A stretch of 64,000 bases of DNA, from contig LVBD01000051.1 in the NCBI GenBank assembly GCA_001604275.1, positions 1-64,000 of the forward strand. Direction: 5' to 3'. The position numbers and the translations under genes are program-made. Shown piece by piece: positions 8,995 to 55,587 of the stretch. The number at the start of each line of letters is the position of its first letter. The stretch's first letter is position 1. Source of the DNA: Spirochaetales bacterium Spiro_02. GTDB taxonomy: Bacteria; Spirochaetota; Spirochaetia; Sphaerochaetales; Sphaerochaetaceae. Under the pieces are notes generated by a model. It searched no databases. It was not told the origin of the DNA and worked only from the letters and a program-made list of their open reading frames with translations.

Positions 8995-9735
8995 TTACAG
9001 TATATGGTCGAGAAAGAGCTTCGTCCGATCGTTCCGAGGGTGTTCGAAAATCTGTTCAGGAGTGCCGTATTCGATGATTTCTCCGCCGTCCATGAAAACT
9101 ACTTTCGTTGCGGCGGCTTTTGCGAATCCCATTTCATGGGTCACCAGCAACATCGTCATACCGCTCTTGGCAAGATCAAGCATGACATCGAGCACTTCCT
9201 TGATCATTTCGGGATCGAGAGCGCTTGTCGGTTCGTCGAAGAGCATGATTTTCGGCTGCATCGCCAGCGCGCGTGCGATCGCGACACGCTGCTGCTGTCC
9301 GCCTGACAGCTGACTGGGAAACGACTGGGCCTTCTCTTCCAATCCGACACGCTTGAGCAGATCCATCGCTAGCTGCTCCGCCTGCTTCCTGTCGATCTTC
9401 TTGACCTTCATCGGCGCGAGAATGATGTTCTCCATTACCGACAGATGTGGAAAGAGGTTGAAGCTCTGGAATACCATGCCGACTTCCTCGCGGATTTTGC
9501 GGATGTCGACGTTCGGTGCGGTAACCTCGTCATCATCGACGAAAATCTTTCCGGATGTCGGAATCTCTAGTTTGTTGACGGAACGGAGCAGCGTGCTTTT
9601 CCCGCTGCCGGATGGACCGATGATCACGACTACTTCTCCATCGTTCACTTCCAATGTCGCGTTCTTGATCGCATGGACGGTCGATTTGCTGGTATCGAAA
9701 TCCTTGCTGAGGTTTTCAATCTTGATTCTAGCCAT
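8995..9735 (-). CDS. Polar amino-acid ABC transporter ATP-binding protein (probable arginine/basic amino acid)
   Basis: GlnQ/ArtP-type ATPase of 246 aa: Walker [10 protein letters not shown] near 39-47, Q-loop FQSFN, signature LSGGQQQR, Walker [15 protein letters not shown] and H-loop THEMGFA. It overlaps the permease gene by eight bases and shares its promoter. The operators around the permease and the linked binding proteins match ArgR sites, so arginine or another basic amino acid is the inferred substrate. Confidence 0.92.
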
Positions 9736-10606
9736 TCTCGTGCAGCCTTTCCTCGAGCATCCCCACGAGGCGGGACAGTAGCAAGGTGATGACCAAGTAG
9801 ATCAGTGCGACGATCAGCATGGTCTCCAGCGAAAGGAATGTCCGGGATATGTATTCCCTTCCTTTTCTCAGGATATCGCTGAGGGCGAGCGTGGAGACCA
9901 GCGACGAATCCTTCAGCATGGAAATGAATTCATTTCCGACGGCCGGAAGGATCACCTTGACGGTCTGTGGCAGGATGACATGTCTGAAAGCCTGTCCCCG
10001 ACTGAGCCCAAGAGCGATGGCCGCCTCCATCTGTCCTTTCGGTACCGCCTGAATGCCGGCTCTGACGATCTCGCCCATATATGCGCCAAAACAGATCGAC
10101 AAAGCGATGATCGCGGCGACCATGCCTTCGATATGGAAGAAGCGACCCATGGCATAGTAGATGAAGATCAACTGGACCAGCAACGGGATGCCTCGGATCA
10201 ACTCGACGTAGACACCGCTGATCATGTTGATGAAACGGCTCTTGCTGACCGACCCGAGTCCGCAGAACAGCCCGATGACGATCGCTCCCATGATCGCGAA
10301 AATCGTCACTTCGAAAGTGACCGGAGCGCCTTTGATGGTCACGAGGAAGATGTCGCGGTAGGGGGAAGGCTTGAAGACGACCAACCCGGCGAGCAGGGCG
10401 AGCGCGGCGAAGAATGTAATTCTCCATGCATTGAGTACATGGTTGTCGTCCTTGCGGGGGATCAGCACGCCGTCGGTCATCTGTATGGTAGTGCCCCGCT
10501 TTTTCTGAGTCGCATGAGGATCCACGGAGACTGTCTTCTGTCGGACAACCTGTGTCTTGATCTCCGTAGCGATCGCGTTTTCCGTATCTGTCGTAGAATG
10601 TTCCAT
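9728..10606 (-). CDS. Polar amino-acid ABC transporter permease with long N-terminal extension
   Basis: Inner-membrane permease of 292 aa. The first 60 residues are a polar, Thr/Lys-rich cytoplasmic extension not usual for the HisM family. Hydrophobic helices follow, with the ATPase-contact EAA loop ([21 protein letters not shown]) near residue 190. The start at 10606 is fixed by AGGAGGTGAC directly upstream. Only one permease gene is present, so it probably forms a homodimer. Three binding-protein genes follow upstream at 11130-13746. Confidence 0.9.
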
Positions 10607-10732
10607 GTCACCTCCTGACTCAACGTCCATCGAACGTATCGAAAACCGGGAATACCCCGATATCGGCGGCGACGCACGTAGGAGATTGTATTCTGATTTC
10701 TATTCCGGTCGTATGATCTTGGCTGCTTCTTC

Positions 10733-10746
10733 TGTATAGAAATTCA
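10733..10746. promoter_or_regulatory. ArgR-type operator (ARG box) of the permease/ATPase transcript
   Basis: TGTATAGAAATTCA matches TGNAT-N4-ATNCA at all ten fixed positions. It lies about 12-25 bases downstream of the predicted start of the permease transcript, a repressing position. Confidence 0.65.
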
Positions 10747-10763
10747 TTTTTTCCGTCTGTGAG

Positions 10764-10793
10764 ATTATATGGATATTGCCATATGCAAGTCAA
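10764..10793 (-). promoter_or_regulatory. Sigma70 promoter of permease-ATPase operon
   Basis: Minus strand TTGACT (10793-10788), an 18-bp spacer and a perfect TATAAT (10769-10764). Confidence 0.7.
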
Positions 10794-10997
10794 CATATCT
10801 GTATGCATTATATCGGATAATTTTGAAACGAAATCGGGTGCGATGCGTCCGGTTTCAATCGAAAAAAAATACACTTTGACTGTATTTTTTTGCATAAGAA
10901 CCAATTGTGGCCGTATTGCCCGCCGTGTTGCGGAGAAACATATCATGGTCGGCCACTGCCTCACCTGCCGGTCGACCGACCAGATATCCATCACTAC

Positions 10998-11041
10998 AAA
11001 AAAAGCCCGTACAAGATAGTCTTCCTACCTTGGATACGGGC
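10998..11041 (-). terminator. Intrinsic terminator of the 11130-11894 binding-protein gene
   Basis: Minus-strand stem GCCCGTA/TACGGGC with an inner eight-pair helix CAAGGTAG/CTATCTTG, followed by seven U (A-run 10998-11004 on the plus strand). Confidence 0.85.
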
Positions 11042-11129
11042 GTCTTTGCTCGTCTCGAAATCGCTTTTACGATCTCTTCGTTTACCGTCCCCGACGGCTG
11101 TCCTGTCTCCGATCGACCGTCGTTCGGCT

Positions 11130-11894
11130 CTAGATCAGATTCCACTTCGCCTTCAGCTCGTCCATTTTTCCGTTCGCCTGAAGTTTCGCGATGCAGTCGT
11201 TGATGATGGTCAGCAGTTCCGTGTTGCCTTTCTTGACGCACATGGCGATTTCTTCTATGTCGGAACTGGCGGTTCCGGTCACTTCCAGCTTTCCTTTGTA
11301 ATTCTCGTTGCTCAGGACGAAATCGCTGGCGATCAAGGAATCGCAGACGACCGCGTCAAGAGTTCCGTTGATCAGATCCTCGACGGCAAGCGGTATTTCG
11401 TCATACGCCTTGACTTGGATCGCCAAATCGGTCCGTGCCTCCAGCGCGAAATTGCCGGTCGTACCGATCTGCACGCCGACGCGCTTGCCCGCCAAGTCTT
11501 CGATGGACGCCTGGTCGGTTTCGCCGGACATGGAGAGGATGCTTTGTGTCACAAGCAGGATCGGGGTGCTGAAGTCCATCGTCGCCTTGCGTTCCTCAGT
11601 AACGGAGACGCCGCTGGCGACCGCATCGTACATTCCGTTCATCAGTCCGGCGAAAATTCCGTCCCAAGCAACGTTCCTGCTGGTCATCGGAATTCCTGTC
11701 ATTGCGGAGAACTCCTTGATCAGGTCGATTTCGAATCCGACGATCTCCCCATGTTCGTCGACGAATTCCAATGGCGGCCACGTACAATCGCTCGCGAATA
11801 CATAGCTTTTCGCAGCGCTTTCTTTCTGTCCGTTGGAGAAGGCGGGAATCATGCAGGTGAGGCAGATTAGAACCACAGCAATACTTTTTTTCAT
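11130..11894 (-). CDS. Basic amino-acid-type ABC substrate-binding protein 1
   Basis: Exported binding protein of 254 aa, SBP family 3. The signal peptide (MKKSIAVVLICLTCMIPAFS) is followed by a short polar linker NGQKESAAK. The mature start CTWPPLEFVDEHGEIVGFEIDL and SVTEERKATMDFSTPIL are shared with the two tandem paralogues. AGGAGGGTGAT precedes the ATG at 11894; a longer frame to 11975 runs through the operator and is not supported. Two perfect ArgR-type boxes flank its promoter, and a strong terminator follows, so it is its own transcription unit. Ligand inferred to be arginine or lysine. Confidence 0.88.
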   Translation of the reverse strand: MKKSIAVVLICLTCMIPAFSNGQKESAAKSYVFASDCTWPPLEFVDEHGEIVGFEIDLIKEFSAMTGIPMTSRNVAWDGIFAGLMNGMYDAVASGVSVTEERKATMDFSTPILLVTQSILSMSGETDQASIEDLAGKRVGVQIGTTGNFALEARTDLAIQVKAYDEIPLAVEDLINGTLDAVVCDSLIASDFVLSNENYKGKLEVTGTASSDIEEIAMCVKKGNTELLTIINDCIAKLQANGKMDELKAKWNLI

Positions 11895-11924
11895 TGTATC
11901 ACCCTCCTGAAAGAACTTTTGGCA

Positions 11925-11953
11925 ATCATGAATTTTTATGCATGATTGGTCAA
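11925..11953 (-). promoter_or_regulatory. Promoter of binding-protein gene 1
   Basis: Minus strand TTGACC (11953-11948), a 17-bp spacer and CATGAT (11930-11925). One ArgR box lies in the spacer and -10 region. Confidence 0.5.
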
Positions 11954-11974
11954 TACATTTTGAATGATTATACA
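11929..11974. promoter_or_regulatory. Two perfect ArgR-type operators, binding-protein gene 1
   Basis: TGAATTTTTATGCA (11929-11942) and TGAATGATTATACA (11961-11974), both matching TGNAT-N4-ATNCA at all ten fixed positions. They are 32 bp apart, about three helical turns. Confidence 0.75.
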
Positions 11975-12044
11975 ATAAGTTGTATATTATTTTCTTGTTT
12001 TGTTATTATCGTAACAAATAGTCGCCGAAAGACTGTCAGGATGC

Positions 12045-12812
12045 CTAGAGAAGGTTCCATTTCGCTTTGAGTTCGGCCATCTTTCCATTCTGCTTGAGCG
12101 TGGCGATGCAGTCGTCGAGCAGATCGACGAGAGCAAGATTTCCTTTCTTGACTGCGATCGCGATCGGTTCTGTGATTTCTGATGCCACGCCGGATACCAT
12201 GAGCCTTCCTGCATAGTTCGGATTGCTCAGTACATAGTCGCTGGCGATCAATGAATCGCACACGATTGCATCGAGATTCCCGTTCATCAAATCTTCGATA
12301 CCGAAACCGACTTCGTCGTATGCCTTGATCGTAAGATCGAGCGAAGGCTGATCTTTCAGTGCGTCCTCGAGAGCTATGTGCCCCGTTGTACCGAGCTGAA
12401 CGCCGACTTTCTTTCCTGCAAGCCCCTGTAGGTCGTTCATTCCGGAGGTCCCCTGGTGAACGATGATCGATTGCGTTACATACAGGATCGGGGTGGTGAA
12501 CTCCATCGCGCCCTTGCGTTCTTCGGTGACCGACACTCCGCTGGCGATCGCATCGTATGCTCCGTTCGCCAAGCCTGCGAAGATGCCGTCCCATGCGACA
12601 TTCCTCACGGTCATGGTGTATCCGGTCATGGTCGCGAATTCATGGATCAGGTCGATTTCAAAGCCGACAATATCGCCGTTCTCATCGACGAATTCCAATG
12701 GAGGCCATGCACAGTTCGCGGCGAATACATAGGAATTCTCTTCTTTATTTCCATTGGAAAAAAGCGGGAGCAAGCACAGTAGCAACAGTGTTAGTGAAAT
12801 CAGTTTTTTCAT
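12045..12812 (-). CDS. Basic amino-acid-type ABC substrate-binding protein 2
   Basis: Exported binding protein of 255 aa, close paralogue of its neighbours. Signal peptide MKKLISLTLLLLCLLPLFS, linker NGNKEENS, then CAWPPLEFVDENGDIVGFEIDL and SVTEERKGAMEFTTPILYV. The start at 12812 has AAGGA upstream. Its promoter carries two perfect ArgR-type boxes in the same geometry as gene 1, indicating duplication of gene plus promoter. Only a weak hairpin follows it. Confidence 0.88.
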   Translation of the reverse strand: MKKLISLTLLLLCLLPLFSNGNKEENSYVFAANCAWPPLEFVDENGDIVGFEIDLIHEFATMTGYTMTVRNVAWDGIFAGLANGAYDAIASGVSVTEERKGAMEFTTPILYVTQSIIVHQGTSGMNDLQGLAGKKVGVQLGTTGHIALEDALKDQPSLDLTIKAYDEVGFGIEDLMNGNLDAIVCDSLIASDYVLSNPNYAGRLMVSGVASEITEPIAIAVKKGNLALVDLLDDCIATLKQNGKMAELKAKWNLL

Positions 12813-12835
12813 TGTGGTTCCTTTGTGTAAGGCAG

Positions 12836-12865
12836 ATGATTGCATAAGTATGCATTATTTGTCAA
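12836..12865 (-). promoter_or_regulatory. Promoter of binding-protein gene 2
   Basis: Minus strand consensus TTGACA (12865-12860), an 18-bp spacer and AATCAT (12841-12836). One ArgR box fills the spacer. Confidence 0.55.
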
Positions 12866-12887
12866 GATTTTTATGAATAATTATACA
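12841..12887. promoter_or_regulatory. Two perfect ArgR-type operators, binding-protein gene 2
   Basis: TGCATAAGTATGCA (12841-12854) and TGAATAATTATACA (12874-12887), 33 bp apart. Both match TGNAT-N4-ATNCA at all ten fixed positions, one between -35 and -10 and one upstream of -35. Confidence 0.78.
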
Positions 12888-12932
12888 TAAATTACATTTA
12901 TTACACTGATTGGTGCATGTTCATGCGTATGT

Positions 12933-12969
12933 AAAAAACCGTCTCTGAATCGCAGTGATCCAAAGACGG
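12933..12969 (-). terminator. Intrinsic terminator of binding-protein gene 3
   Basis: Minus-strand stem of 13 pairs (two G-U) starting CCGTCTTTGGATC and closing GATTCAGAGACGG, followed by six U. Confidence 0.88.
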
Positions 12970-12996
12970 CTGAGTAAACAGGGCTGTGGCTTCAGT

Positions 12997-13746
12997 CTAC
13001 AGGATATTCCATTTCGCTTTCAGTGCGGCGAGCGAACCATCCGCTTCCATCTTGGCGAGCCCTTCGTTGATCAGGTTCAGGAGCTTCGTATCGCCTTTCT
13101 TGACCGCGATCGCTATATCCTCCTGCGTGAACGGTTCTCCGACGACGGTGATCTTTCCTTTGTAGTTATCGTTCGCCAAAACGAAGTCGCTGGCGATCAA
13201 GGAATCGCAAACGGCGGCGTCGAGGTTTCCGTTCATCATGTCCTCGATGGCGAGCCCGATATCGTCATATGCGCGCTTGACGACATTGTAGTCATCCAGA
13301 GCGAAGTCGCCGGTCGTCCCGATCTGGACACCGATCTTCCGTCCGTCGAGATCCTGGATTCCTTTGAATTTCTCGGCATCGCCCGTTCTGACGATGACCA
13401 CTTGTCCTGCGCTGAGGATAGGGGTCGAGAAGTCCATGGTGAGCTTGCGTTCGTCGGTGACCGTGACGCCTGAGGCGACTCCGTCGTATGCGCCGTTGGC
13501 AAGACCGGCGAAGATCGTATCCCATGGAATGTTCTTCACCGTCATCTTCACTCCGATTTTTTCACCGATCATCGGCATCAATTCGACTTCGAATCCGGTG
13601 AGGACGCCGTTGTCGACGAATTCAAGCGGCGGCCAGGTCGCATCGGCGGCGAATACAAATCCGTCGGTCTTTTCTTTCTCTCCGCCGGCGAATACCGGAG
13701 CAAGGCAGGCGAGCAGAACGCACAGGACAATACATGCTTTCTTCAT
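12997..13746 (-). CDS. Basic amino-acid-type ABC substrate-binding protein 3
   Basis: Exported binding protein of 249 aa. Signal peptide MKKACIVLCVLLACLAPVFA, then GGEKEKTDG and ADATWPPLEFVDNGVLTGFEVEL, and TVTDERKLTMDFSTPIL. It is the most divergent of the three tandem paralogues. AAGGAAG lies upstream of the ATG. No ArgR-type box is found in its promoter; instead a near-palindrome TTGATTGATCAGTCAA (13777-13792) covers the likely start site, so its control may differ. It has its own terminator. Confidence 0.88.
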   Translation of the reverse strand: MKKACIVLCVLLACLAPVFAGGEKEKTDGFVFAADATWPPLEFVDNGVLTGFEVELMPMIGEKIGVKMTVKNIPWDTIFAGLANGAYDGVASGVTVTDERKLTMDFSTPILSAGQVVIVRTGDAEKFKGIQDLDGRKIGVQIGTTGDFALDDYNVVKRAYDDIGLAIEDMMNGNLDAAVCDSLIASDFVLANDNYKGKITVVGEPFTQEDIAIAVKKGDTKLLNLINEGLAKMEADGSLAALKAKWNIL

Positions 13747-23513: not shown

Positions 23514-24731
23514 CTAGTTTCTGCTCGCCGACGCCATCAGCCTGATGGCGTTGATATTGATGAAGCCCTTGCAGTCGACAGGATGGTATCCGCCGGCCTT
23601 GTCCATGCTGCCGAGCGCTTCGTTGTACAGCGAACAGGGACTGGTGATACCTGCATTGATGACGTTTCCTTTATACAAGGCGATCTTCGCCGTGCCTGTC
23701 ACATGCTTCTGACTCTGCTCGAATGCGGCGGTGAGCATATCGAATTCGGGGGCGTGCCAATAGCCGTTGTAGATCAGCTCCGCGTACTTGGGCATCAGGC
23801 TGTCGCGCAGATGCATGACCTCCTTGTCCATCGTAATTCCCTCAAGGTTGTGGTGGGCTTTCCAGAGGATCTCGCAGCCCGGAGTCTCGTACACGCCGCG
23901 GCTCTTGATTCCGATATAGCGGTTCTCCACCATGTCGACACGTCCGATCGCGTTATCATGTCCCATTTTGTTCAAGTATAGGACCATGCCGAGCGGATCC
24001 GTCACCACGGTTCCGTCGCCTTCGTTCGTTACCTTCACAGGAGTTCCATCCACGAACTCTATGGACAGAAGCGTTTCCTTGTCCGGCGCATCCTGCGGAG
24101 AAAGCGTCAAGGAAAAAACGTCGGAGGGGCAGCGGTTCGCCGGATCCTCGAGAATGCCTGCCTCGTGGCTGATATGGATCAGATTCTCGTCCTCGCTATA
24201 CGGCTTCTTGACGGAAGCCTTGACCGGAATGCCGTATTTCTCAGCGTACGCAAGCATATCGGAACGCCCTTCGAACTGACTGAGCCATTCTGGATCCTTC
24301 CATGGACTGATGATCTTCACTTCCGGCATATGCATGTAGTAGCCGAATTCGAACCGTACTTGGTCGTTGCCCTTGCCGGTGGCTCCATGGGCCACATAGA
24401 CCGTTCCTTCCCGCTTCGCGATCTCGATCTGCCGTTTCGCGATGATCGGTCTCGCAATGGAAGTGCCGAGCATGTATGTCCCCTCGTAGATCGTGTTCGC
24501 CTTCATCGCCGGGATGACGTAGTCCGTTACGAGTTCCTTGCGTAGATCTTCGATATATACTTTCGAAGCTCCCGTCGCGAACGCTTTCTTTTCGATCGCC
24601 TCGAAGTCTTCGTTCTGCCCCACGTTCGCGACATACGCGATAACGTCGAATCCTTTGTTCGCCAGCCATTTTAGAATGACCGATGTGTCCAGGCCGCCAC
24701 TATATGCCAGGATGATCTTCTCTTTGCTCAT
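23514..24731 (-). CDS. argG: Argininosuccinate synthase
   Basis: Joins citrulline and aspartate with ATP in arginine synthesis; 405 aa, standard length. The ATP-binding PP-loop is [13 protein letters not shown] near the N-terminus, and [13 protein letters not shown] and [14 protein letters not shown] follow. GGAGGG lies upstream of the ATG. argH is not adjacent in this window. The promoter carries two near-perfect ArgR-type boxes, consistent with arginine feedback. Confidence 0.95.
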
Positions 24732-24778: not shown

Positions 24779-24808
24779 ATTGTATGCGAAACTTGATAAA
24801 ATATGCAA
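24779..24808 (-). promoter_or_regulatory. Promoter of argG
   Basis: Minus strand TTGCAT (24808-24803), an 18-bp spacer and TACAAT (24784-24779). Confidence 0.55.
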
Positions 24809-24881
24809 TACATTTTGTATATTTATTCGTAAAAAAGGGGTCTGTTGCGCTCAGGAACGCAAAAGATTAAATATTTATTCA
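24794..24881. promoter_or_regulatory. ArgR-like operators upstream of argG
   Basis: TGTATATTTATTCG (24816-24829) and TAAATATTTATTCA (24868-24881) each match nine of ten fixed positions of TGNAT-N4-ATNCA. A weaker TGATAAAATATGCA (24794-24807) overlaps the -35. Confidence 0.6.
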
Positions 24882-55473: not shown

Positions 55474-55587
55474 AGAGTCTAGCATATGCTCGCCCGTGGA
55501 GGCAAGCAGGCCTTTCATACGGCCGCCTGGATATCCATCCATTCTGCTGGCGACCGGAACGCGTATTCGGACTGGGAGGATTTCCGT

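Follow-up and report, generated by a model that had tools for sequence, protein, structure and literature searches.

Which regulator controls the amino-acid importer encoded in this DNA, and what does the importer carry? The window (the whole stretch analysed, 64,000 nucleotides from Spirochaetales bacterium Spiro_02) contains co-located SBP_bac_3, BPD_transp_1 and ABC_tran genes, the make-up of a PAAT amino-acid ABC importer. Like other PAAT transporters (the Art, Gln and His systems), it has SBP_bac_3 binding proteins, one permease and one ATPase; however, there are three binding-protein genes here, and at least two of them have their own promoters with predicted ArgR boxes. The original prediction placed five perfect TGNAT-N4-ATNCA boxes in this cluster, at 10733, 11929, 11961, 12841 and 12874, and each is an exact match there.

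Boxes and promoters of the importer

The genes and predicted signals of the cluster are as follows.

8995 to 9735, minus strand: ABC ATPase (PF00005); top NCBIfam match GlnQ, under the GlnQ cut-off
9728 to 10630, minus strand: amino-acid ABC permease (PF00528); reaches the TIGR01726 cut-off
10733 to 10746, no strand assigned: perfect ArgR-type box, downstream of the -10 of the predicted permease promoter
10764 to 10793, minus strand: predicted promoter of the permease-ATPase operon, TTGACT-18-TATAAT, with the -10 at 10769-10764
11130 to 11894, minus strand: SBP2, solute-binding protein (PF00497; P0002), 65% identical to SBP1
11925 to 11953, minus strand: predicted SBP2 promoter, TTGACC-17-CATGAT, with the -35 between both boxes
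11929 to 11942, no strand assigned: perfect box within the -35/-10 spacer of the SBP2 promoter
11961 to 11974, no strand assigned: perfect box upstream of the SBP2 promoter -35, pitch 32 bp
12045 to 12812, minus strand: SBP1, solute-binding protein (PF00497; P0001)
12836 to 12865, minus strand: predicted SBP1 promoter, TTGACA-18-AATCAT, with the -35 between both boxes
12841 to 12854, no strand assigned: perfect box within the -35/-10 spacer of the SBP1 promoter
12874 to 12887, no strand assigned: perfect box upstream of the SBP1 promoter -35, pitch 33 bp
12937 to 12971, minus strand: terminator-like hairpin in the SBP3/SBP1 gap
12997 to 13746, minus strand: SBP3, solute-binding protein (PF00497; P0003)

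As originally described, in both the SBP1 and the SBP2 promoter one box occupies the -35/-10 spacer and its partner lies 32 or 33 bp upstream of it; the -35 hexamer falls between the two. Two boxes overlap the promoter in SBP1 and SBP2. The permease operon is different, with a lone perfect box, at 10733, on the downstream side of the predicted -10. By eye, a second terminator-like hairpin is seen near 10999-11045, between SBP2 and the permease gene. Hairpins thus lie in the SBP3/SBP1 and SBP2/permease gaps, in keeping with separate promoters. Since the totals of the promoter scan (6 sites versus a shuffle mean of 4.1) and the terminator scan (5 versus 5.0) are close to those of shuffled sequence, we rely on position and conservation for these signals. 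The SBP3 upstream region within the window has no box at up to one mismatch, whereas SBP3 counterparts in relatives carry box pairs. A one-mismatch box, TGCATGTTCATGCG, lies at 12914-12927, 40 bp from the 12874 box, and is a possible third site of the SBP1 promoter.

How often would such boxes arise by chance? The rate originally given, about one per Mb, is an underestimate by more than tenfold, since dinucleotide-shuffled copies of the window contain a mean of 1.05 or 1.2 perfect boxes per 64 kb (two runs), or roughly 16-19 per Mb. A sixth perfect box in the window lies at 55528, away from the cluster. The claim that the cluster is a non-chance signal stands, as region 10601-13000 (2.4 kb) holds five boxes against a mean of 0.064 and a maximum of 2 in 5000 dinucleotide shuffles, none of which reached five. 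With the AT-rich intergenic pieces shuffled singly, the mean is 0.060 and five or more again appear in 0 of 5000. When each of these two binding-protein promoters, SBP1 and SBP2, was shuffled 20000 times, neither ever produced a box pair at a pitch of 32-33 bp. The boxes might be accidental products of AT-rich promoter DNA and of the -10/-35 sequence, and the downstream box does partly overlap the -10 region, but the shuffles, together with conservation of the pair at 16 of 19 same-family loci (see below), make this extremely improbable. Chance clustering of the five boxes is ruled out by the local shuffles.

Conservation and spacing of the paired boxes

Relatives of SBP1 (E-value 1e-40 or better) occur in 31 of the 61 genomes. 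Of the 30 places with a retrieved locus, 1 is in this genome, 19 are in same-family genomes and 10 in genomes of other families; the match in G056 came without a locus. Allowing up to one mismatch per box, pairs at 32-33 bp occur at 16 of the 19 same-family transporter loci versus none of the 10 other-family loci. The same-family loci hold 21 pairs in total (16 at pitch 32, five at 33), and 50 shuffles of these 19 loci gave a mean of 0.08 pairs and a maximum of 1. At the same threshold, three same-family loci (L072, L077, L082) have no 32-33 bp pair; one other-family locus (L079) shows a 32-bp pair once two mismatches are allowed in one box. The pair is found at none of three loci in genomes without ArgR (L085, L087, L088) and at none of seven loci in other-family genomes with ArgR. 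Since the latter genomes lack the 32-bp pair at homologous transporters, presence of ArgR does not by itself predict the pair.

Genome-wide, with up to two mismatches over the pair, 32-bp pairs sum to 68 in the 37 same-family genomes (G000 included) versus 2 for a reversed control, and to 20 versus 5 in the other 24 genomes, while pitch-21 pairs in the same family sum to 99 versus 10; these ratios overstate the signal, because dinucleotide composition is not preserved in the reversed control, and many of the two-mismatch sites listed resemble coding DNA.

How does the arrangement compare with known systems? Neither the regulator nor the box is new, and ArgR is already known to control amino-acid importers; the difference lies in the spacing. 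The importer boxes fit the ARG-box palindrome, with a consensus of the TNTGAATWWWWATTCANW type as given in an excerpt of PMC4865122. In E. coli, artJ, artPIQM and hisJQMP likewise have ArgR boxes over the promoters of amino-acid ABC importers that use several binding proteins, and the operator, in the part of PMC6640053 that describes it, consists of two 18-bp boxes with 3 bp between them (pitch 21). Here the pitch of 32-33 leaves 14-15 bp between 18-bp boxes, with the -35 inside the gap; the importer thus departs from the E. coli design, while the genome's own argR, at pitch 21, has the E. coli spacing. The nearest spacing is that of B. subtilis AhrC at argC, where two ARG boxes are likewise set far apart, with 11 bp between them, and an extra single box lies inside argC (excerpt of PMC3293853). 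The sites in our case differ from argC in lying at an importer (and at argG in relatives) and in their 14-15 bp gap. Streptomyces ArgR likewise uses an ARG-box palindrome upstream of arginine genes, with 2 bp between the boxes of its operators (same excerpt). The original description of a double-box layout of ArgR/AhrC therefore has to be amended: the operator is a modest conserved variant, whose paired sites straddle the promoter and are set roughly one DNA turn farther apart than in the classical arrangement. A 32-bp spacing that is kept in many genomes and common to unrelated genes offers a natural test of the distance that an ArgR hexamer can bridge.

ArgR and the candidate arginine regulon

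A search for argR, proposed with the original prediction, finds one intact ArgR encoded in the genome, in an open frame of 156-160 amino acids. Profile searches place its N-terminal wHTH domain (PF01316, E 3.5e-18) above the cut-off and identify the C-terminal arginine-binding domain (PF02863, E 3.9e-24), which is present in 52 of the 61 genomes searched. The closest solved relative is AhrC (phmmer matches to the AhrC/ArgR structures 1f9n, E 2.1e-24, and 1b4a), and the GTxxGDDT motif is kept, as GTLAGDDT aligned with GTICGDDT of AhrC. We take the GDD motif to be the arginine-site motif, with a role in arginine binding. The promoter of argR itself has a perfect box and a one-mismatch box at pitch 21. 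Among the first nine argR loci retrieved (L001-L009), this genome's own is the only one with a pair at pitch 21 (up to two mismatches), and two have pairs at pitch 22; four further loci with pitch-21 pairs at argR (L208-L211) were selected from genome-wide pitch-21 matches, not at random. At one locus (L117), a 32-bp pair precedes argR.

The window also contains an arginine biosynthesis gene.

23514 to 24731, minus strand: argG, argininosuccinate synthase (PF00764, PF20979)
24794 to 24829, minus strand: two imperfect boxes ahead of argG at pitch 22, with 1 and 2 mismatches
24868 to 24881: further one-mismatch box near the argG pair

The distance between argG and the transporter is about 11 kb in the window and 4.6-8 kb in six relatives. 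In this genome, the boxes at argG are all imperfect, and argC has none. In nine relatives (L120, L128, L136, L146, L198-L202), a 32-bp pair with a central -35-like TTG lies upstream of argG, and in three others (L197, L203, L204) the same arrangement precedes argJ or argC. The gene at L197 was confirmed as ArgJ, that at L204 is argC by its semialdehyde dehydrogenase domains, and that at L203 is argC by resemblance; some of the listed 32-bp sites in relatives, not all, were inspected.

A single ArgR, argG in the window, conserved pairs at the transporter and the same pair at argG and argC/argJ make ArgR control of the importer very likely, in agreement with the original prediction. Could a different dimeric regulator with a similar AT-rich palindrome use these sites instead? 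The loose motif is not rare, which would leave room for one, but the same motif stands upstream of argR, argG and argC/argJ, and we consider another regulator very unlikely. From the sequence, we conclude with high confidence that the genome's single ArgR uses the five boxes as operators and would repress the importer when arginine is plentiful.

How might this repression work? With plentiful arginine, arginine-loaded ArgR would occupy the two boxes flanking the -35 at each of the SBP1 and SBP2 promoters and would also sit on the lone box immediately downstream of the promoter of the permease operon. Bound ArgR would keep RNA polymerase off the importer promoters, and when arginine is scarce the importer would be made. 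Binding of ArgR to the boxes and its dependence on arginine are inferred here, and repression is the presumed direction because the boxes overlap the promoter. With the -35 hexamer between the two boxes, arginine-loaded ArgR should block the promoter. The boxes are about three helical turns apart, on one face of the DNA, with the -35 covered, and repression by occlusion is the most likely mode, judging from the promoter anatomy and from the precedent of E. coli carAB P2, where ArgR and RNA polymerase are mutually exclusive (as stated in an excerpt of PMC6245113). ArgR might alternatively activate the importer: the upstream box lies just 5′ of the -35, a position open to an activator, and catabolic genes are activated by AhrC (excerpt of PMC3293853). 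We regard activation as unlikely, however, since the second box fills the -35/-10 spacer in both promoters and the permease box lies downstream of its promoter, both of which favour occlusion.

If ArgR represses the importer in this way, the importer, argG and argR would form one arginine regulon. Our literature search found no paper on the ArgR regulon in this bacterial group, one hit being to ArgRS; a single regulon would link the otherwise unassigned importer with argG and argR there.

Probable ligand, and boxes elsewhere in the genome

Do the boxes also reveal what is transported? The original prediction read from them that the transporter serves arginine or basic amino acids. This step does not follow, as a regulator tells when the importer is made and not what its cargo is. 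Nor do the binding proteins themselves settle the assignment: matches to the NCBIfam LAO, cystine, arginine and glutamine models are all below the cut-offs, and the best score is 147 bits, against a cut-off of 256.35 for TIGR01096 (arginine-specific ArtJ/ArtI/LAO). The nearest solved relatives are of mixed ligand. The closest solved sequence is AncQR, which we take to be an ancestral Gln/Arg binder, followed by several amino-acid binders including ArtJ; the nearest relatives also include T. maritima 6svf and Geobacillus ArtJ 2pvu, both presumably arginine binders, and glutamine binders.

The importer most likely takes up arginine or a related polar amino acid, and probably arginine itself, a best guess that derives from regulation and gene neighbourhood and not from the binding-protein sequence. 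A less probable alternative is that ArgR binds the boxes as a general nitrogen or amino-acid regulator while the importer carries something else (glutamine, cystine, histidine or a broad set). That all four NCBIfam matches fall far under their cut-offs, that AncQR is the closest solved sequence, and that perfect single boxes also precede glutamate dehydrogenase, SSF symporter, aspartokinase-like and oadB-like genes would fit such an importer; the occurrence of the 32-bp pair at argG and argC/argJ elsewhere, and the closeness of the importer cluster to argG, speak for arginine.

Across the genome, TGNAT-N4-ATNCA with any centre occurs 60 times, versus 43-49 scaled from shuffles and 8 for the reversed pattern. 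As this total barely exceeds the shuffle expectation, chance accounts for many of the single boxes beyond the cluster, and we set the free-centre count aside as evidence. Boxes with an AT-rich centre occur at 25 places, versus 1-2 for the reversed pattern and about 5 by scaled shuffles; argR, carA, two glutamate dehydrogenase genes and a sodium:solute symporter are among these places. Perfect single boxes lie upstream of sodium:solute symporter, carA, two glutamate dehydrogenase, aspartokinase-like and oadB-like genes (L053, L054, L039, L052, L048, L045). It is possible that these single boxes mark a wider ArgR regulon.

Eight of the 25 AT-centred places fall in repeat-like element ends rather than at ordinary genes (C3, C9, C18:25936, C28, C30, C65, C67, C69:131007). 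Seven copies of an element end, GAGCCAATTTCAAAAC, lie at contig ends of the genome (L010, L013, L020, L026, L040, L041, L044). They are of two types with boxes just inside, four of type A (two boxes at pitch 22, where the contig reaches) and three of type B (one box). By eye, two A/B pairs have matching 4-bp flanks, GTCA and TTGA, the pattern expected of target duplications; types A and B may therefore be opposite ends of a single element. The body of the element was not seen in this genome's assembly, and of 16 viral contigs with the 16-mer none continues like the element by eye. A 15-mer of the end occurs in 14 of 392 genomes. The element was discovered via its boxes, which biases the view of their association; at the end loci read outside this genome, the first 110 bases have no box at up to one mismatch, so the boxes are not a general feature of the terminal sequence. 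Our literature search found no paper on ArgR boxes in insertion sequences.

It is tempting to picture two operator classes family-wide, a pair two turns apart at argR (pitch 21) and one three turns apart (pitch 32) sandwiching the -35 at arginine import and synthesis genes, perhaps differing in arginine sensitivity, alongside, in this genome, a multicopy mobile element with ARG-type boxes inside both ends and an activity possibly tied to arginine. This combined picture is speculative, and we hold it to be rather doubtful.

In a relative (G224, L187 1437-1515), GAGCCAATTTCAAAA forms both arms of a small inverted repeat with no ArgR box. Among 20 genome contigs matching the end plus a box, one is alike (L167, from a Spirochaetales MAG) and the rest were judged unrelated by eye. 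Related ends with one box each occur close to the L056 contig end in this genome and at 7017-7066 of L167.
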